Assembly (NCBI RefSeq): GCF_032925565.1
Contig: NZ_CP136708.1
Coordinates: 1,054,001-1,118,000, forward strand
Reading direction: 5' to 3'
Source: Alteromonas sp. CI.11.F.A3
Lineage (GTDB): Bacteria; Pseudomonadota; Gammaproteobacteria; Enterobacterales; Alteromonadaceae
DNA: 64,000 nucleotides
Within the stretch, counting starts at the first letter, position 1; each line of letters begins with the position of its first letter. Below the pieces are notes generated by a model. It was not told the origin of the DNA. It did no database searches and saw nothing but the letters and a program-made list of their open reading frames with translations. A program made the translations under genes and the position numbers. Below, piece after piece: positions 12,631-21,428 of the stretch.

Positions 12631-13875
12631 TTAACGGCCATAGGCAACGCAGGACGGGTCAACTTTCTTATCAGAAGTGAGTACAAATGCAGACACTAAA
12701 ACGAAAAATAATACGGTAAGCCCAATAATTTTGTACGCATCGGCGAAGCCAATTCCATCGTACAACATGCCAAGTAATACTGATAAACCACTGGCAGCAA
12801 CTTGTCCCATAAATTGAAAGCCGACAATATAAATAGTCGCCGATAGTCTAGCGTCAAATATCGCTGCAATATATTTAAAGATTGCTACCAGCATAATAGG
12901 TAACTCTGCGGCGTGTAAAAGCTTCATGGCTGAAATTGAGATAGGGTCTGCAGCATATCCTGAACCTATAATACGTAACGCCATAATTGCTCCACTTAAG
13001 AGCAGTCCGTTTTTCGCGCCAATTTTATTTACGATGAATGGTGCAATGAACATACCGCCAGCTTCAAGAAAAACCTGAAACGAATTTAGGTAACCATACA
13101 TAGCATTCCCTTCGGCTTTAGTGGGAAATTGAGCTGCAAAATAGACGGCGAATTGTTGGTCATAAACACCGTAAATGCATGAAACCCCAACAACCCAGGT
13201 AGCAAAAGCCCAGAACTTACGCTGACGAAATAGACCAAGGGCGTCACTTAATTTCAATGAGTTAGCTTGCTTGGAAATATCTAATTCTTTCGCAGTATTT
13301 TCACTTATTTTAACGAAGTAAAGACATGACAAAAATATTAACGCACAGAAGCTAGCAAGCACAAAGTTCAAGCTTGCAGATACATTAAAGATTTGACCCG
13401 TAAAGAAAGTCGCAATAGCCCAGCCTACAGAGCCCCACATGCGAGCTTTACCAAATTCGAACCCTGTTGAACGGCCAACTCTTTCAATATAAGTTTCGAC
13501 AGCGCCAACACCGGCAAAAAAAGCAGTAGAGCAATAAAAGCCTCCTACTATTGCGCCTAAATAAAGAGAATGCGTAAGTAAAGGTGTGTATATATAGATA
13601 AAAAATGGGCCGCTGAGTAGCAGCATTGCTCCAATAAACCAGAGTAAGTTTTTACGCATACCTAATTTATCTTGCAGAAAACCGTAACAGGGCATTATAA
13701 AAAGAGCGGTTAAAGCATTAATGCTAAAAACTAATCCTGTTTCTGTACCGCCTAAACCAATCGACTGATTCAGCCAAATTGGGTAAATCGAAAAACAAAA
13801 TGACCATGTTAAAAAAAAGCTAAGTATGCAACCGCTGAGTAACCAGTAATTGCGTTTTGATATGGCATCGGTCAT
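12631..13875 (-). CDS. Oligosaccharide:H+ symporter, LacY/CscB-type sucrose permease
   Basis: The 414-residue protein has twelve predicted membrane segments and resembles the oligosaccharide:proton symporter family (LacY, RafB, CscB) in order and detail: IYPIWLNQSIGLGGTETG, the YGFLQDKLGMRKNLLW loop, GPFFIYIYTPLL, and the SVGWAIATF region. Among these it looks nearest to CscB, the sucrose permease. It sits in the inner membrane and should import sucrose or a small fructoside with protons. The start is 21 bases downstream of the LacI gene on the same strand, so repressor and permease are probably one transcript. With the cytoplasmic GH32 enzyme it forms a non-phosphotransferase uptake route. 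Confidence 0.87.
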   Translation of the reverse strand: MTDAISKRNYWLLSGCILSFFLTWSFCFSIYPIWLNQSIGLGGTETGLVFSINALTALFIMPCYGFLQDKLGMRKNLLWFIGAMLLLSGPFFIYIYTPLLTHSLYLGAIVGGFYCSTAFFAGVGAVETYIERVGRSTGFEFGKARMWGSVGWAIATFFTGQIFNVSASLNFVLASFCALIFLSCLYFVKISENTAKELDISKQANSLKLSDALGLFRQRKFWAFATWVVGVSCIYGVYDQQFAVYFAAQFPTKAEGNAMYGYLNSFQVFLEAGGMFIAPFIVNKIGAKNGLLLSGAIMALRIIGSGYAADPISISAMKLLHAAELPIMLVAIFKYIAAIFDARLSATIYIVGFQFMGQVAASGLSVLLGMLYDGIGFADAYKIIGLTVLFFVLVSAFVLTSDKKVDPSCVAYGR

Positions 13876-13896: not shown

Positions 13897-14907
13897 TTAG
13901 ATTGCGCGGTGCGAATCACGCAAAAGTAATTGCCCGCTAATCTCTTGGGTTTTAGTGTTTATTTGTAATGCTTTATCAATAGCTATTTGTGCGGCAATTT
14001 GCCCCATGTCAAAATACGGAAGGCTTACTGTAGTGAGTTTCGGCACAAGGTTTTCTGCAATCAATTTATAATTGTCGTAACCAACGATTGAAATAGTTTC
14101 AGGTATTTTGTACCCCATTTTTCGAATAAGCATAAAAACACGCATCGCCATTTTGTCGTTACCACAGCAGATGGCGGTAGGCCTTTCTGGCATAGACATA
14201 ATGTCCTTTAAGACATCTGGGAGATTAGCAAACTCATCATCTGGGTTCTTACAAACACCCTCTACAATCAATTCGTTTTCAACGCTAAGCCCCGCTTCTT
14301 CGTGCGCTTTTCTAAAGCCCTTTACTCGAAGTGGGGTTGCGGTCATCTCGTCAAATAATGTTAGGTAGGCAATTTTCTTATGGCCGGACTTGATCAATTC
14401 ACTGGTGAGATTGAACGCGCCTAAATAATCGTCAGGTACTATTGTTGGATGTCTCAAAATGCTTTCGTAACAGTTGACCAATATAAGTGGGCACTTGTTG
14501 AATGACTCTTTAATGCTTACTTCTTTATGAGATACGGTAGCAAAAATGATTGCTTCAGCGCGTTGTCGCCTGAAATCATCAACGAGACGAGAAAAGCTTT
14601 TAACATTGCCACCTGACTCACCAATCATGAGCAACTTGCCATGCTTTTCGCACTCGTGCTGGATCCCCGCAATAATGTCGAACGAGTCAGGGGTAGTGGT
14701 CAGGTTCTCAGTTATAAGACAAACAATGCCTTTTTCCTGTCCTCTCAAGGCTTGAGCGGCAGCTGAAGGATAAAATTCTAACTCCTCCATGGCCTTGTTT
14801 ACTTTCAGCCTTGTTTTAGCGCTTACACCTTCATAATTGGTTAGCACTCTTGACACTGTTTTGACTGATACACCAGCTTTTACGGCTACGTCTTTTATAG
14901 ATGACAT
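13897..14907 (-). CDS. LacI-family transcriptional repressor of the sucrose/fructoside locus
   Basis: The 336-residue regulator has the LacI helix-turn-helix at its start (MSSIKDVAVKAGVSVKTVSRVL, hinge helix to about residue 55) and a periplasmic-binding-protein-like sugar domain after it. I placed the start at the ATG at 14907 because the HTH of this family begins within a few residues of the N-terminus; the frame is open further but the extra 38 residues have no family counterpart, and neither start has a strong ribosome binding site. It is divergent from GH32 and upstream of the permease. A near-palindromic 18-base site just after the GH32 -10 box, found again before the TonB receptor, is its likely operator. 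The inducer is inferred to be sucrose, fructose or a derivative. Confidence 0.87.
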   Translation of the reverse strand: MSSIKDVAVKAGVSVKTVSRVLTNYEGVSAKTRLKVNKAMEELEFYPSAAAQALRGQEKGIVCLITENLTTTPDSFDIIAGIQHECEKHGKLLMIGESGGNVKSFSRLVDDFRRQRAEAIIFATVSHKEVSIKESFNKCPLILVNCYESILRHPTIVPDDYLGAFNLTSELIKSGHKKIAYLTLFDEMTATPLRVKGFRKAHEEAGLSVENELIVEGVCKNPDDEFANLPDVLKDIMSMPERPTAICCGNDKMAMRVFMLIRKMGYKIPETISIVGYDNYKLIAENLVPKLTTVSLPYFDMGQIAAQIAIDKALQINTKTQEISGQLLLRDSHRAI

Positions 14908-14966: not shown

Positions 14967-14997
14967 TTGACAAACTGTTAAAATCAGTCATCATAAT
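14967..14997 (+). promoter_or_regulatory. Candidate promoter of the GH32 gene
   Basis: TTGACA at 14967-14972 and CATAAT at 14992-14997, spaced 19 bases, resemble a sigma-70 promoter. The candidate LacI operator begins at the last bases of the -10 box, a placement that would block initiation. Confidence 0.5.
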
Positions 14998-15013
14998 GAC
15001 CAACGATAGACAT
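14996..15013. promoter_or_regulatory. Candidate LacI operator, copy 1 (GH32)
   Basis: ATGACCAACGATAGACAT matches the site before the TonB receptor at 16 of 18 positions and keeps the CG-centred near-palindromic form usual for LacI-family operators. It lies about 43 bases upstream of the GH32 start codon. Confidence 0.65.
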
Positions 15014-15056
15014 TTAATCAAGTCTTTTTTCCCACATTCGTATTGATGAGTAAGTT

Positions 15057-16478
15057 ATGCATAGTACCCTTCGCGAGACATCCCCATCGCAAAATGGCAA
15101 ATGGGAGCCACACTTTCATTTTTACAAGTTTGGTCATTGGATAAATGACCCTAACGGGCTGTTTTATTTAGATGGAAAGTATCATCTTTTCTTTCAGTTA
15201 AACCCTGATGCGACTGTGTGGGGCAATATGCACTGGGGAGCAGCAGAGTCGACTGATTTGATCAATTGGGAGCACAAACCAATTGCGTTGTATGCTGAGC
15301 CAGAAGGGTTGGGATACATTTTCTCGGGCGGGGCAATAGTCGATGGAAAAAACACTTCAGGCTTTGGTATAGATAATGTCCCTCCAATAATTGCTACTTT
15401 CACGCAACAGTCTATAGAAGAGGAACAGGTACAAAGTATCGCCTATTCTGTTGATGGTGGTAATACGTTTAGCATGTTTAATGAAAACCCTGTAATTGCT
15501 AACCCTGGTATTAAAGACTTTAGAGATCCAAAGGTGGTTTGGTTTGATGGACAAGACGAACAATATTGGGTTAAAGCTGTAGTCGCCGGGCACTGCGTAC
15601 ATTTCTACAAGTCTAATAATCTTAAAACATGGACAAAACTGTCAGAGTTTGGTGAGGGCGTTGGCGCTCATGGCGGTGTGTGGGAATGCCCTGATTTGTT
15701 TCCTTTACGGTGTGAAGAAACTGGGCAGCAACTTTGGGTGCTATTAATCAGCATCAACCCTGGTGGGCCTAATGGTGGCTCGGCAACTCAATATTTCATA
15801 GGTAGCTTCGACGGTATCGAATTCGTACCGCAAGATGGTGAAATTCGTTGGTTAGACCATGGTACAGATTGCTATGCGGGTATTACTTGGGATAACACAC
15901 CAAATATACTGGAAGAAAGAGTGTACACAGCGTGGATGAGCAATTGGGACTACGCAAATAATACCCCTGATGATACGTGGCGTGGTGCGATGACGCTACC
16001 TAGAAGCATTAAGTTAGGTAAAAGTAATCATTCATATCGGCTGTTGACGCCAGTCTTTCCAGATTTTAGTTCATATGGAACGCAAGAAGCCGAATTTGCG
16101 TGTAATCAGGCTCTACCCCAAGCCTACAAGCTCTCATTAAATATATCTCCACGCGAAACGCAAACCGATATCGTATGGACTAATGAGGAAGGTGAAGTCT
16201 TTTCTATTTCTATTGACCTAAAACGCTCTGAAATAATAGTAGACCGAAGTCAAACGGGCTTTTCTGACAAAGGATTTGACTCAACGTCGACCATACCCAT
16301 CGTGTTCGATGTGAATGATACTATTTGTTTAGCGGTTTATGTTGATGTGTGTTCATTCGAATGCTTTTTTAACGACGGTGAGCAATGCATCACCTCGTTA
16401 GTATTCCCTTCATCCTCCCTGAATAACGTGAATATTTCCGAACATGTTACCAACATTGCTTTAAAAGACTTAACTTAA
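15057..16478 (+). CDS. Glycoside hydrolase family 32 beta-fructosidase (sucrose hydrolase-like)
   Basis: The 473-residue enzyme has the full GH32 signature: HWINDPNG with nucleophile Asp31, FRDPK with the transition-state-stabilising Asp157, and WECPDLF with acid/base Glu210, in a five-bladed propeller (about 15-330) followed by the C-terminal beta-sandwich. There is no signal peptide, so it acts in the cytoplasm on sugars brought in by the CscB-like permease, splitting sucrose or short fructosides into fructose and the rest. Whether it takes free or phosphorylated sucrose cannot be read from the sequence; the permease context favours free sugar. It is divergent from lacI and has its own promoter with an overlapping operator. 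Confidence 0.9.
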   Translation: MHSTLRETSPSQNGKWEPHFHFYKFGHWINDPNGLFYLDGKYHLFFQLNPDATVWGNMHWGAAESTDLINWEHKPIALYAEPEGLGYIFSGGAIVDGKNTSGFGIDNVPPIIATFTQQSIEEEQVQSIAYSVDGGNTFSMFNENPVIANPGIKDFRDPKVVWFDGQDEQYWVKAVVAGHCVHFYKSNNLKTWTKLSEFGEGVGAHGGVWECPDLFPLRCEETGQQLWVLLISINPGGPNGGSATQYFIGSFDGIEFVPQDGEIRWLDHGTDCYAGITWDNTPNILEERVYTAWMSNWDYANNTPDDTWRGAMTLPRSIKLGKSNHSYRLLTPVFPDFSSYGTQEAEFACNQALPQAYKLSLNISPRETQTDIVWTNEEGEVFSISIDLKRSEIIVDRSQTGFSDKGFDSTSTIPIVFDVNDTICLAVYVDVCSFECFFNDGEQCITSLVFPSSSLNNVNISEHVTNIALKDLT

Positions 16479-16550
16479 AAACTTAAGCGCTGTAATGCAA
16501 TATCTAGTGAGTTAGCCATACAAGATATTGCGTTTCAGCGCTTATGCAAA

Positions 16551-18059
16551 CTAGGTTTTACAGTAATTCTCTACGTAGGCGCCGTGTTCCGGAATCGACT
16601 TCGCGTTTACATCAATTATGTGTTTTATATCAGCCATTCTCTTCTTCAGTTCTTGCTCAGAGTAAATGTCTGCATTTGCATCATATCCGCGAGAAGTAAG
16701 ACCTTGCCCAACCATGACAGCAAGCCAAGAATAACGATTAAATAGCTCCTCGTTTTCTCTGAAGATCCGCCCTCTGCTTTCAAACAGAGAAAGCTTGCGG
16801 GATAAGCTATCTGGTACTTCCATGTTTTTGCAGAACTGCCAATAGCTTGAATCAGTGCGCTCTGTCACTTTGTAGTGACAAATTAAAAAGTCACGAATCT
16901 GTTGGAACTCGGTGGTTGATTGTTCATTAAAGTGGTCGATATCGATTTGTTCAAAGTCTAAATCTGGAAAGAGTTTGATGAGCCTAGAGATACCAGACTG
17001 AATCAAGTGAATGGATGTCGATTCCAAAGGCTCTAAGAAACCAGATGACAGTCCGATTGCAACACAGTTTTTCACCCAAAACTGTGCACGATGACCTGTT
17101 TTGAAGCTTATTTTTCGTGGTTCACCTACTAATTTCCCTTCTATATTTCGCAGCAGTGTATCTTGTGCACTTTGATCATCGGTGTGCGCACTAGAATATA
17201 CAATGCCATTGCCTGTACGTGATTGTAGTGGTATTCGCCATTGCCACCCGGCTTCTACAGCGGTAGAGCGGGTAAAAGGGGGTTGAGAGTTTAGCTTTTC
17301 ACTACCCACGGCCCAAGCGCTATTATTTGGTAAATAGTGGCTCCAATCGACGAAGGGGACCTTAAACACTTTGTCTATAAGTAAACCGTAAAACCCAGAA
17401 CAGTCGATAAATAAGTCGGCTTCTAAGGTTTGTCCATTTTCCATTGTAATGCTTTTCAAAAAGCCATTGTCATTTCGCAATGTCGTATCAACGACTTTGC
17501 CTTCTATGCGCTTGACGCCCTTACTCTCTGCGATATCACGCAAATAAGACGCGTATAGAGTGCTATCAAAGTGATACGCATAGCCAATTTCAGATAGCGG
17601 CGTATTCTTCTGCTGAACGGGGTGCCTAAAGCGATGTTGTTTAGCAGCCATCGCCATTATGTTGTACTGATCTAAGGTGTCTTTATGGCCACAGGCCTGC
17701 AATCGCTGCCAAAACGCGTGGAAACTCACGCCATCCATATCTACGCCATATGGCCCGAAAGGGTGAAAGTATTGATGGCCTTTTTGCTTCCAATCAACAA
17801 ACTCAATGCCTAGTTTAAAAGTGGCTTGAGTTCGTCTCATAAAGTCTTTTTCAGTAATACCAACGTGACGGTTAAATGTTTTTATATGCGGAATACTTGC
17901 TTCGCCAACACCAATGGTGCCAATTTGGTCAGATTCCACCAAGGTGATATCTACGCTGTTGTTTTTAAAGGAGCTTGCTAAAGCAGAAGCACTCATCCAT
18001 CCAGCAGTACCGCCACCAACTATGATGACTTTCTTTATCGCATTATCAGGTTTGCGCAT
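16551..18059 (-). CDS. Flavin-dependent tryptophan-halogenase-family enzyme
   Basis: The 502-residue protein has the flavin site GGGTAGW (15-21), a GEASIP motif, Lys82 in ATFKLGIEF at the place of the catalytic lysine of PrnA/RebH, the WQWRIP motif that marks flavin-dependent halogenases, and GFLEPLESTSIHL containing the conserved glutamate. These enzymes use FADH2, oxygen and halide to make hypohalous acid and halogenate an aromatic substrate; the residues needed are all present. The substrate is unknown: the tryptophan name is by family only. No flavin reductase gene is adjacent. It follows the TonB receptor gene on the same strand, after an intrinsic terminator, and similar pairings of halogenase and TonB receptor are known in marine and freshwater bacteria. 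Confidence 0.88.
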   Translation of the reverse strand: MRKPDNAIKKVIIVGGGTAGWMSASALASSFKNNSVDITLVESDQIGTIGVGEASIPHIKTFNRHVGITEKDFMRRTQATFKLGIEFVDWKQKGHQYFHPFGPYGVDMDGVSFHAFWQRLQACGHKDTLDQYNIMAMAAKQHRFRHPVQQKNTPLSEIGYAYHFDSTLYASYLRDIAESKGVKRIEGKVVDTTLRNDNGFLKSITMENGQTLEADLFIDCSGFYGLLIDKVFKVPFVDWSHYLPNNSAWAVGSEKLNSQPPFTRSTAVEAGWQWRIPLQSRTGNGIVYSSAHTDDQSAQDTLLRNIEGKLVGEPRKISFKTGHRAQFWVKNCVAIGLSSGFLEPLESTSIHLIQSGISRLIKLFPDLDFEQIDIDHFNEQSTTEFQQIRDFLICHYKVTERTDSSYWQFCKNMEVPDSLSRKLSLFESRGRIFRENEELFNRYSWLAVMVGQGLTSRGYDANADIYSEQELKKRMADIKHIIDVNAKSIPEHGAYVENYCKT

Positions 18060-18124
18060 ATTTAAACTCTCAATACCAACATAAAATATTCAGTGTACTT
18101 ATAAATGTCGTAAAACGTGCATAA

Positions 18125-18153
18125 CGAAAAAAAGAGGGCCAAAGGCCCTCTTC
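18125..18153 (-). terminator. Rho-independent terminator after the TonB receptor gene
   Basis: On the minus strand GAGGGCC and GGCCCTC (18134-18150) form a GC-rich stem with a 3-base loop, followed by a run of T. It separates the receptor transcript from the halogenase gene, so the halogenase is expressed by read-through or its own promoter. Confidence 0.87.
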
Positions 18154-18252
18154 CATGCTCTTATAACAAGAGCCACACAACACTCTCACATATTGGGCTG
18201 CACACTGACCCATAATGGAGAGGCATACTTACACTTTGGCAAGTAAACTCAC

Positions 18253-20838
18253 TTAGAAAGTATAGTTGATGCTTGCAACTGCACTTCGGCCACTAATTGA
18301 ACGCATTCTTACGTATTCATTAGTAAATGGCTCTGATGCACCTACAGCAGCATTCTCACCTTCAGTTAAACCAATTTCATCTGTTATATTATTAACGTTC
18401 AGCGATACTGAAAGGTCATCATTGAAACGATAAGTTGCAAACACATTTGTTGTTAGGTAACCGGGCATGACCAATACATTTTCATTTCGTACATATGAGT
18501 CAGTTGTACCAACTATGTTTAGCCCTACTGTGTATGAATCTGTGTCATAAGATGCGATTGCAGAATATACCCAATCCGCTTGGCGTTGTGGTACGTTTCC
18601 AACAAAGTCAGGGAATAAATCGTCTGCTGCAATTTCAGCATCTGTCCAGGTTACATTACCAGAGAAGTTAAAGTTGTTGATAGAGTAGAAGGCTTCTACT
18701 TCGATACCTGAAGACTCATAATCACGTAACGATAATGGACCGCCGGTAACACGGCTTTCGCCAACGACTTCTTGGGTTTCTGCTGAGAAATAAACGGCGT
18801 TGATATCTAAACTATCGAAACGATACTTAACACCGACTTCTAACATTTTTACTTGATCTTCAATACGCTCATCATCAATATCACCTACTTTTTTGCCAAA
18901 GGCCGAGCTATCTGGATCTGCAACATTCGCAGGTGAATAGACCAAGCCAATAAGACGTTCTGAATTAGCGCGATAGCCTACGGAGTAGCGTCCAAATACA
19001 CTTAAACCAGTGTCTATTAGGTAATTTGCACCAAGTGAATATGAAAAATAGTCATAGTCAAAGTCGACAGCGAATTCAGGCTCTGGGTTATGCAAAGACA
19101 CCTGACCTTCTACGCCCTCTATCGTACCGTTGTTATTCACGTCGAAGTCTGTAACTCGAATTGAATTAGCATCAAGTGAACGAGAGCCGGTAGTACGTCC
19201 TGAGTCGTAACGGATACCTGCATCTAACGTTAAGTCTCCACTGTAATAAGTCGTATTTACATAAAGTGCATCAATCTTAGTGTTTAAGTCGAAACCACCA
19301 TTACAACAATTTCCCCACTCAGCTGGACCGTATGAAATTAATCCGCCACTAGTCAGAGTTTCTCCACTCACGTCATCTACAACATCGACATACGCAGTGT
19401 CACCACCGCCTTCAACTGATGTTAGATAAGAAGGCCAACTTTGAAAGTTTTCTATTGCTTGCTCTGAGTGGTACCAACCCGTATGAACTTCTAACTCTGA
19501 ATCATCAGATAACGTGAACACCTTGCTTAAATCTAAGTTATTCATCAGGTTGCTTAAATCTTGCATCTCTGTATTAAACGTGTGAATCACGGCAACAGAG
19601 GTATCCGGCGCAAGTGCTTGACCTGTATTGGGACCCGTTGCATAGATATAGCTGAAGTCTGTTCGCCCTTCAGAGCCTGCAAGATAATTTCCAACGAACG
19701 CACCACGATTGTCCTGCGTGCCTACCGACGCGGGGAAGGGAACGACAAATTCACCACTTATATCAGCCATTTTAAAGCGGTTTAATAATGACCAGCCGCC
19801 GCCAATGTCATCCAAGCTGGCTTCAAAACCAAATTGCTTAACGTCAGACTGCATGCCATCTGAAAGTCGCTTTTGCACAACATTATTTTGTTCATCCAGT
19901 ACTTGAATAGTATCTGTATGCACACTTTGCAGGGTGTCGCCATTGGCTGAGTAGCCAGGAATAGAGCTATATGTTGGGTTCGCATTTGTACCACTTACGA
20001 ACATAGGTGTTGGCATATAACCTACTGCACGATCGTTAAGAATTTTCACATTACCGCGGATATAACCGCCATCAAATTCTTTCGTTAGGTTAGCTTTTAT
20101 CTGGCCGCCTTTGTTAACATCATATCCAGCTTCACGAGGGCCTTCACCTACTCTATAAAAGCCGCCGATGTGTCCGTACCAACCATTTTCCCAATTATGA
20201 CCGGCCTCAAAATCTAATCGAGTAGTATCGTAAGTTAATCCTTTAGTAAGTCTTGCTGAGCCGCCGCCTTGCTCGCCCGTTTTGCTAATAAAGTTGATAA
20301 CACCACCCGGTGAGTTACTCGCCAGTATAGATGCTGAACCACCTCGAATAGCTTCAACACGTGCGACGTTTGCGTCTGCGCGTAAAAAGATATCTGCGTT
20401 AGCAAAAGAAATATCGCCAAACTCTAATACTGGAAGGCCGTCTTCCCAAAGCTGCAAGAATTTCGCACCGCCAGATGCTATCGGTAAGCCACGAATAGCA
20501 ATGTTCGCATTACCGTCACCACCAGATGCTTCTGAACGAACGCCTGGAATTTGTCTAAGTATCTCGGCTGTTGTACGAGATACTTCAAAAACGGGGCTGT
20601 CTGCGTCTATGCTAGAAATCGATACTGAAGACTCCAGTGGATCTGCACTTCCACCTGGCACTGCAGTAACAAAGATTCGTTCTATTTCTTTTTCCGGCAC
20701 TTCTTCTTGAGCATAAGCAAGATTGCTCATTGCTAGCATGCTTACACCAGTGCATGCGAAAAGTGAGGATACTAAAACAGACAAGCGCTTTTTCTGGAAA
20801 TGCTTTGTATTGTGTTGACTTATTTGACGATGACTCAT
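18253..20838 (-). CDS. TonB-dependent outer-membrane receptor
   Basis: The 861-residue protein has a signal peptide (cleavage near AYA-QEE), a plug domain (roughly 50-190, with ILRQIPGVRSE, NIAIRGLPI and the VEAIRGGSASIL / GGVINFISK blocks) and a beta-barrel ending in a C-terminal phenylalanine (ASINYTF) as needed for outer-membrane assembly. A possible TonB box lies near IERIFVTA. AGGAGG sits before the ATG. The promoter carries the same palindrome as the GH32 promoter and no Fur-like box, so it is more likely a sugar importer (sucrose or fructo-oligosaccharide) than an iron receptor. That specificity is inference. A strong terminator follows. Confidence 0.88.
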   Translation of the reverse strand: MSHRQISQHNTKHFQKKRLSVLVSSLFACTGVSMLAMSNLAYAQEEVPEKEIERIFVTAVPGGSADPLESSVSISSIDADSPVFEVSRTTAEILRQIPGVRSEASGGDGNANIAIRGLPIASGGAKFLQLWEDGLPVLEFGDISFANADIFLRADANVARVEAIRGGSASILASNSPGGVINFISKTGEQGGGSARLTKGLTYDTTRLDFEAGHNWENGWYGHIGGFYRVGEGPREAGYDVNKGGQIKANLTKEFDGGYIRGNVKILNDRAVGYMPTPMFVSGTNANPTYSSIPGYSANGDTLQSVHTDTIQVLDEQNNVVQKRLSDGMQSDVKQFGFEASLDDIGGGWSLLNRFKMADISGEFVVPFPASVGTQDNRGAFVGNYLAGSEGRTDFSYIYATGPNTGQALAPDTSVAVIHTFNTEMQDLSNLMNNLDLSKVFTLSDDSELEVHTGWYHSEQAIENFQSWPSYLTSVEGGGDTAYVDVVDDVSGETLTSGGLISYGPAEWGNCCNGGFDLNTKIDALYVNTTYYSGDLTLDAGIRYDSGRTTGSRSLDANSIRVTDFDVNNNGTIEGVEGQVSLHNPEPEFAVDFDYDYFSYSLGANYLIDTGLSVFGRYSVGYRANSERLIGLVYSPANVADPDSSAFGKKVGDIDDERIEDQVKMLEVGVKYRFDSLDINAVYFSAETQEVVGESRVTGGPLSLRDYESSGIEVEAFYSINNFNFSGNVTWTDAEIAADDLFPDFVGNVPQRQADWVYSAIASYDTDSYTVGLNIVGTTDSYVRNENVLVMPGYLTTNVFATYRFNDDLSVSLNVNNITDEIGLTEGENAAVGASEPFTNEYVRMRSISGRSAVASINYTF

Positions 20839-20916
20839 GAAGCCTCCTGACAGACCTAATAATTTTTAGTGTGCTTTTTACACCGAAAATTGTGTAGCGT
20901 AATAATGTGTGTGTTT

Positions 20917-20934
20917 ATGACCAACGTTGGACAT
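20917..20934. promoter_or_regulatory. Candidate LacI operator, copy 2 (TonB receptor)
   Basis: ATGACCAACGTTGGACAT contains the perfect 10-base palindrome CCAACGTTGG and is palindromic at 8 of 9 pairs overall. On the minus strand it lies between TTGTAA and CATAAA (16 bases apart), a plausible promoter for the receptor, about 80 bases before its start codon. Confidence 0.7.
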
Positions 20935-21428
20935 TTTACAAATATTTTACTCACTTGCAACAACAAAATGAAGGTTTTTAGCCTTTTCAACTAAATTTAT
21001 ACTTTTGATTAATGAAAAGGTTCCTGCAAAATAATCCGCTGAATCTAAGAAAAGCTATAAAATACAATCGCTTTCACATATAAATTTGCCGCCCCGCAGT
21101 ACTCCCTTCAAAATTGGCATATCGTTCATTAAGTTAATTGAATGTTAGAGCACTCTTATGGAAATAGGTATGGCCCTTTAAGGGGAGGGTTACCCTGTTA
21201 CGAGAGGGGAGAGATGCTTTCAATGAAGCTACGCGGAACAGTATTGGAGTGCGTTTTAAAGCCTGTCTCTACTACCCCTAAACTGAGACAGACTAATTAA
21301 AGTTTTCTACAATAATTGATGCAGGAAACGACTAAGGAACATCACGCGATTCAAATTCTCAGATCATCGGAGTATTAAAAAAGTCGAGCGCCCACTACGC
21401 CTGAGTGGCGACTTCATATATTTAAGAC

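Follow-up and report, generated by a model that had tools for sequence, protein, structure and literature searches.

The window, a stretch of 64,000 nucleotides from the genome of Alteromonas sp. CI.11.F.A3, encodes a LacI-family regulator (13897..14907, minus strand) that very probably co-represses a GH32 beta-fructosidase, a sugar permease and a TonB-dependent receptor (TBDR) through putative binding to matching operators. Comparison of sequences is the basis for the sites, their place before the genes, their recurrence in relatives and the gene set. The regulator carries a LacI-type helix-turn-helix and a sugar-binding domain. CG-centred palindromes are located 5' of its predicted targets and are rare elsewhere in the genome. 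The first-pass annotation had joined the GH32 and TBDR genes in one regulon. Both are retained, and the regulon is extended, since the permease gene at 12631-13875, directly 3' of lacI, belongs to it too.

The genes are arranged between 12631 and 20838 in the order symporter and lacI (minus strand), GH32 (plus strand), halogenase and TBDR (both minus strand, with the TBDR gene upstream). The regulator has 336 aa and matches PF00356 and PF13377, both above the cut-off. It shares 100% identity over 336 residues with a LacI encoded by an Alteromonas sp. MMG017 contig. The longest lacI ORF opens with TTG at 15021; the orthologues agree on an ATG at 14907. The LacY-type sugar/proton symporter (12631..13875, minus strand) follows lacI after a 21-bp gap, and both genes are presumably on one transcript. 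The permease gene adjoins lacI in 10/10 LacI regions of relatives and in Rheinheimera, not in a Woeseiaceae MAG. The GH32 beta-fructosidase (15057..16478, plus strand, 473 aa) has an exo-inulinase (8i12) as its best-scoring solved relative. By eye, it has kept the WINDPNG, RDP and EC motifs; a signal peptide, also looked for by eye, was not seen in this protein. The TBDR (18253..20838, minus strand, 861 aa) has a signal-peptide-like start. With a TBDR, an inner-membrane sugar transporter, a degrading enzyme and a regulator, the gene set of a CUT locus is complete.

Operator 1 (14996..15013, plus strand) and operator 2 (20917..20934, minus strand) were first described as two 18-mers identical at 16/18 bases and centred on CG. 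A direct check of the window sequence bore out the positions, the identity and the centre. The 16-bp core of operator 1 (14997-15012) is TGACCAACGATAGACA. It lies in the gap from which lacI and GH32 diverge, and relatives have similar sites in their own lacI-GH32 gaps. Operator 1 is intergenic because lacI starts, according to the orthologues, with the ATG at 14907; with this likely start, lacI adjoins the operator as had been stated. The core of operator 2 (20918-20933) is part of the TBDR promoter, about 80 nt 5' of the TBDR start codon. Read from the sequence, the core of operator 2 is a nearly perfect palindrome (7/8 pairs) and that of operator 1 has 5/8 pairs. In two other Alteromonas genomes with the locus, G017 and G028, a single base of operator 2 is swapped for another allowed base. 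The GH32 gene of G028 (L116:8153-9575) is broken into two ORFs by an internal stop, and both operators are present in this genome.

A degenerate form of the 18-mer with up to three mismatches had four matches in the window, representing three places (site 2 was counted on both strands), with 0.20 expected. None of 100 window shuffles reached four matches. In the complete host genome (4,662,912 bases, one contig), only operators 1 and 2 matched with zero to two mismatches. Six more places needed three mismatches each; a reversed-pattern control gave four forward and three reverse matches. The consensus TGWCYAWCGWTRGWCA occurs exactly only in the GH32 and TBDR promoters of the window within the 4.66 Mb. 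A third copy had been reported absent from the halogenase and oxidoreductase promoters, in agreement with the presence of the exact core at only two places in the complete genome. Random occurrence across the genome, named at the outset as evidence against the regulon, was checked by the whole-genome scan and not seen. A wider regulon in the host genome was considered and rejected: a one-mismatch place at 495484 and a two-mismatch place 75 bp off are both inside one ORF.

Relatives of the regulator were used to follow the operator between genera. A family search with the LacI protein covered 295 genomes and gave nine matches at E <= 1e-70, including the host genome. G017 and G028 came from separate searches and are outside these nine. 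A scan of named contigs found 41 loci, 11 of them at >=50% LacI identity, of which Rheinheimera sp. UJ63, the Woeseiaceae MAG and Sphingomonas oleivorans were new. The comparison set comprises 14 LacI loci at >=50% identity; wider regions were scanned over 178,797 bases in ten loci and 62,862 in three. The consensus was written from the sites of the window, G017 and G028 and from the lacI-GH32 gaps of G221, G173, G218, G236, G141 and G189. In the 14 genomes, it matched exactly at 21 places, 21/21 within the LacI locus, with two matches for the reversed control. Twelve of these 21 sites fit by construction, and nine sites in five loci are independent of the writing of the consensus. Independent exact sites are located 5' of a TBDR gene in G221, G173 and G141 (two). 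Rheinheimera has three, one 5' of a TBDR gene, one in the lacI-GH32 gap and one 5' of a second GH32 gene, and the Woeseiaceae MAG and Sphingomonas have one each 5' of a TBDR gene. Sites with one mismatch precede the TBDR gene of G189 (two) and the permease gene of Sphingomonas. At least one exact copy is present in 12/14 genomes, and the window-type operator is found from Alteromonas to Sphingomonas.

The operator lies 5' of a TBDR gene in 10/14 LacI loci, including the Woeseiaceae MAG and Sphingomonas. From this recurrence and the genome-wide rarity we infer co-repression of uptake and hydrolysis, as originally proposed. A TBDR with the operator was not found in the other four loci, G218 and G236 (Aliiglaciecola group) and G174 and G197 (Glaciecola MAGs). 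G218 and G236 have a nearby TBDR of another kind; in G218, it has CTTAAACGATTAAG upstream, an exact match to the degenerate form of another operator. In G174 and G197, the gap site has three mismatches and no TBDR was found in the scanned stretch.

The family genomes also provided a background. Exact copies of the consensus were present in 23/295 genomes, in 7/9 with the LacI (by construction) and in 16/286 without a match at E <= 1e-70. The latter frequency is background-like because the reversed control matches 14/295. The exact site is within an ORF of >=90 aa in 14/16 of the genomes without the LacI versus 3/21 of the LacI-locus sites in the same test. These three are all at the over-long fronts of lacI or GH32 ORFs, which were drawn from the first possible start. 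The information content of the motif is 25.5 bits for 20 tabulated sites on both strands; near-identical copies were left out of this table, and the one-mismatch sites of G189 (two) and Sphingomonas (one) were included. More distant LacI relatives (37-44% identity), many from Marinomonas and Rhodobacterales, were rejected as users of the operator, with a site within one mismatch in 0/30 loci. G009 (L170:573-11221) encodes a LacI (35%), a 690-aa GH32-similar protein and a LacY-type permease (51%), with no operator of the window type within two mismatches. G104 (L211) has four exact TGTCCAACGTTGGACA copies within about 2 kb; the 3 kb examined there cover three of these copies, all outside ORFs of 90 aa, and contain no LacI match.

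The presumed GH32 promoter (14967..14997, plus strand) consists of TTGACA (14967-14972), a 19-bp spacer and CATAAT (14992-14997). Operator 1 had been placed after this -10 box. The adjacency is correct, but the last two bases of CATAAT are also the beginning of the 18-mer. A promoter scan of the GH32 upstream region pairs TTGACA with CATCAT (16-bp spacer), not with CATAAT. The presumed TBDR promoter (20933..20960, minus strand) has TTGCAA, a 16-bp spacer and a TAAAAT whose last base is also base 1 of the operator core. The scan of this promoter gave one further promoter-like site on the opposite strand, with 0.9 expected in shuffles; in these scans, shuffled sequence yields about as many promoters. 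The position of the -10-like hexamer was compared for 24 sites, a set that includes near copies (G017, G028 and the window, and also two Aliiglaciecola genomes). At the offset that puts the end of the hexamer on base 1 of the core, the mean match to TATAAT was 4.58/6, with 3.00 for the next best of 26 offsets. A match of at least 5/6 at this position was present in 16/24 sites (GH32 10/10, TBDR 6/12, others 0/2). TTGACA is located at one fixed distance from the operator in 9/10 GH32 promoters, with a 19-bp spacer to the -10-like hexamer. This spacer recurs in several genera and is longer than usual; the GH32 promoter may be weak or in need of help. Steric repression in LacI-type systems works through an operator placed over the transcription start. 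Repression is the direction of control suggested here by the placement of the sites, and LacI may act as an activator instead.

A mechanism can be proposed on these grounds. A LacI dimer would bind TGWCYAWCGWTRGWCA. In the absence of the inducing sugar, both operators would be occupied. The repressor on operator 1 would cover the beginning of the GH32 promoter and sit upstream of lacI and the permease gene, and on operator 2 it would sit where the TBDR promoter starts. RNA polymerase would be blocked at both operators. When the sugar enters, most likely sucrose or a short fructo-oligosaccharide, the repressor would come off the DNA, allowing joint production of the receptor in the outer membrane, the LacY-type symporter in the inner membrane and the GH32 enzyme in the cytoplasm.

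The best NCBIfam model of the receptor is the siderophore-receptor subfamily TIGR01783 (93 bits versus a cut-off of 223.5), and the search of solved chains gave a single match, to an iron-transport receptor (E 5e-5). Both would agree with an iron-siderophore receptor that stands apart from the sugar genes, next to sites that are a chance similarity or a short repeat. This is extremely improbable. The sites are unique in the genome, kept in G017 and G028 and present before other TBDRs in other genera, and a chance match of the two sites was rejected on the genome-wide scans and the family background count. TIGR01783 also matches, below its cut-off, a receptor beside a sucrose phosphorylase. The window TBDR shares 43% identity with the receptor of G040 and 38% with a second receptor of the host genome. 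In G040 (L168), the TBDR gene is adjoined by sucrose-phosphorylase-like, MFS, PfkB kinase and LacI genes. The second sucrose locus of the host genome at about 1481485 (L126:7471-13043) has a TBDR, an MFS gene and a sucrose phosphorylase (TIGR03852, 414 bits versus a cut-off of 334). Control of that locus by the window operator was rejected; its TBDR gene is preceded by CTTAATCGATTAAG instead. The sugar role assigned to the window receptor by the first-pass annotation gains support from these nearer relatives beside sucrose phosphorylases in the host genome and G040. Homology and the shared operator together support a predicted function in sugar transport.

Nearly all of the nearer relatives of the receptor examined carry a different operator. 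CTTAAWCGWTTAAG is upstream of 19/20 distinct receptor relatives of 37-43% identity, and the window operator is upstream of 0/20 within one mismatch; the receptor of G031 has neither. Two further relatives, in G017 and G028, are outside these 20. CTTAAWCGWTTAAG was not found within one mismatch in the 600 bp before the window TBDR. The genes next to the G031 receptor (37%; L171:3913-11249) encode a LacY-type permease and a GH32 protein, so the same gene kinds are paired there in another way. An MFS-like gene lies by the receptor in 6/20 and a sucrose-phosphorylase-like gene in 3/20 (host genome, G040 and G011), counted within only 1.5 kb on each side for most of the 20. Neither kind of gene was found in nine wider receptor neighbourhoods, and in 7/9 of these a regulator shares about 50% identity with the L168 regulator. 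The remaining neighbours in L187 (acyl-CoA dehydrogenase, thymidine kinase, GGDEF-EAL) have no relation to sugar. The sparse sugar genes beside the relatives of 37-43% identity count against a sucrose role for the whole receptor group. The receptor of G002 (29% identity) has CTTAATCGATTAAG upstream and a GH97 gene nearby, so CTTAATCGATTAAG serves more than sucrose receptors. Four other receptors at 25-27% have neither operator upstream. The sole other exact CTTAAWCGWTTAAG of the host genome is at 571937 (L196), near an ORF whose product weakly resembles a GH13 enzyme.

Several LacI-like genes are present in the host genome (a loose initial survey gave 17 candidate stretches, seven of which were scored), and a paralogue other than the neighbouring LacI might read both operators. 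This is very unlikely. The motif recurs together with the window-type LacI between genera, and the ScrR-II-like regulators differ in their recognition residues and are encoded near another operator. Eight aligned LacI orthologues all have K16 and R20 in the helix-turn-helix. The recognition helix has V/I-K-R in the window LacI group (T-K-R in the Woeseiaceae protein) versus N/T-A-N in three ScrR-II-like regulators. The window LacI and the LacI of L168 share 25% identity.

The substrate of the regulon headed by the neighbouring LacI is probably sucrose or short fructo-oligosaccharides. The sites might also be operators of a system with a fructan or fructo-oligosaccharide ligand, in which LacI is a fructan regulator and the window a trimmed fructan locus. 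A further GH32-similar protein is encoded in five related loci (L123, L124, L129, L136 and L137). The one in L123 includes a lectin-like domain, and the Rheinheimera one (L129) has an operator of its own. The exo-inulinase as best-scoring solved relative of the cytoplasmic GH32 enzyme points in the same direction, as does the sucrose phosphorylase locus that the host genome already has. We consider this a serious yet rather doubtful option, as no second GH32 match was found in the host genome, the window receptor is of another kind than the receptors of those loci and the LacY-type symporter suggests a small sugar, as for CscB.

TBDRs under the window-type operator in G221, G173, G141 and G189 share only 25-26% identity with the window TBDR. 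A tree parted the window TBDR from the other receptors under the same operator (99/99) and left its join to OmpScr unsettled, with a long-branch warning. The receptor was apparently exchanged under a conserved operator, because its nearer relatives carry CTTAAWCGWTTAAG and the other receptors under the window operator differ. Tentatively, the operator could be what stays constant and the receptor what is exchanged: one receptor kind, perhaps for fructan, would have given way in three Alteromonas species to an OmpScr-like receptor that has a halogenase behind it and relatives in the CTTAAWCGWTTAAG regulon.

This halogenase is a flavin-dependent enzyme of the tryptophan-halogenase family (16551..18059, minus strand), encoded downstream of the TBDR gene. 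Its membership of the regulon is uncertain. An intrinsic-terminator-like hairpin (18130..18154, minus strand) with an 11-pair stem and a T run separates both genes, so the halogenase is perhaps only partly in the unit. Much the same hairpin and T run were seen by eye in G017 and G028. No promoter-like site was found in the TBDR-halogenase gap, and transcription of the halogenase gene may come from terminator read-through. TBDR genes with halogenase-similar genes behind them are also present in G002, G020, G218 and G236.

The predicted regulon gives a testable function to a TBDR that general models only call siderophore-like. The definition of the operator lets targets of this LacI be read in other genomes. 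The apparent exchange is the most interesting feature, as a natural case of a receptor changing its regulon while the operator stays. If true, the exchange would have limited the sugars of the regulon to sucrose or short oligosaccharides, with a halogenase coming under sugar control, wholly or by terminator read-through.

Several known systems resemble parts of the locus. The csc system of E. coli consists of the LacI-type CscR, the GH32 invertase CscA and the LacY-type permease CscB and is not known to include a TonB-dependent receptor. Regulator, GH32 enzyme and LacY-type permease are common to csc and the window. Titles and abstract openings of the literature searched contained no description of the window LacI or its operator. 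TonB is absent from the main text of PMC5945002 and PMC8269204. According to a comparative study, sucrose LacI regulators form at least 11 orthologous groups (PMC4052901); the window LacI group may be one of them.

In the sux CUT locus of Xanthomonas campestris, the LacI/GalR-type SuxR represses the regulator, inner-membrane transporter, TBDR and enzyme genes, which are induced by sucrose (PMC1790865). The window is similar in the repressor type and the kinds of genes and differs in the enzyme, with the amylosucrase SuxB in place of a GH32. In Caulobacter crescentus, the LacI-type SucR represses the promoter of the sucrose TBDR SucA (PMC11897816). Unlike the window, suc is one operon with one promoter, SucR is said to be constitutively expressed and the text gives no operator sequence (PMC11897816). 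The Scr system of Shewanella has a local LacI-type ScrR-II with predicted sites at enzyme/permease genes and before the TBDR OmpScr (PMC2996990). The window shares with this system the predicted LacI-type sites at both enzyme/permease and TBDR genes, and the receptors of the window and L168 have 43% identity. The gene arrangement of L168 is as described for Shewanella Scr (PMC2996990), and L168 is presumably this published system. It differs from the window by a LacI of 25% identity, by CTTAATCGATTAAG as the operator, by a sucrose-phosphorylase-like enzyme instead of a GH32 and by a permease of another family. With this low LacI identity and no CTTAAWCGWTTAAG within one mismatch in the 600 bp before the TBDR gene, the window is distinct from a ScrR-II-type regulon. 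LacI-controlled sucrose TBDR loci are thus already known from Xanthomonas, Shewanella and Caulobacter, and the window locus adds one.
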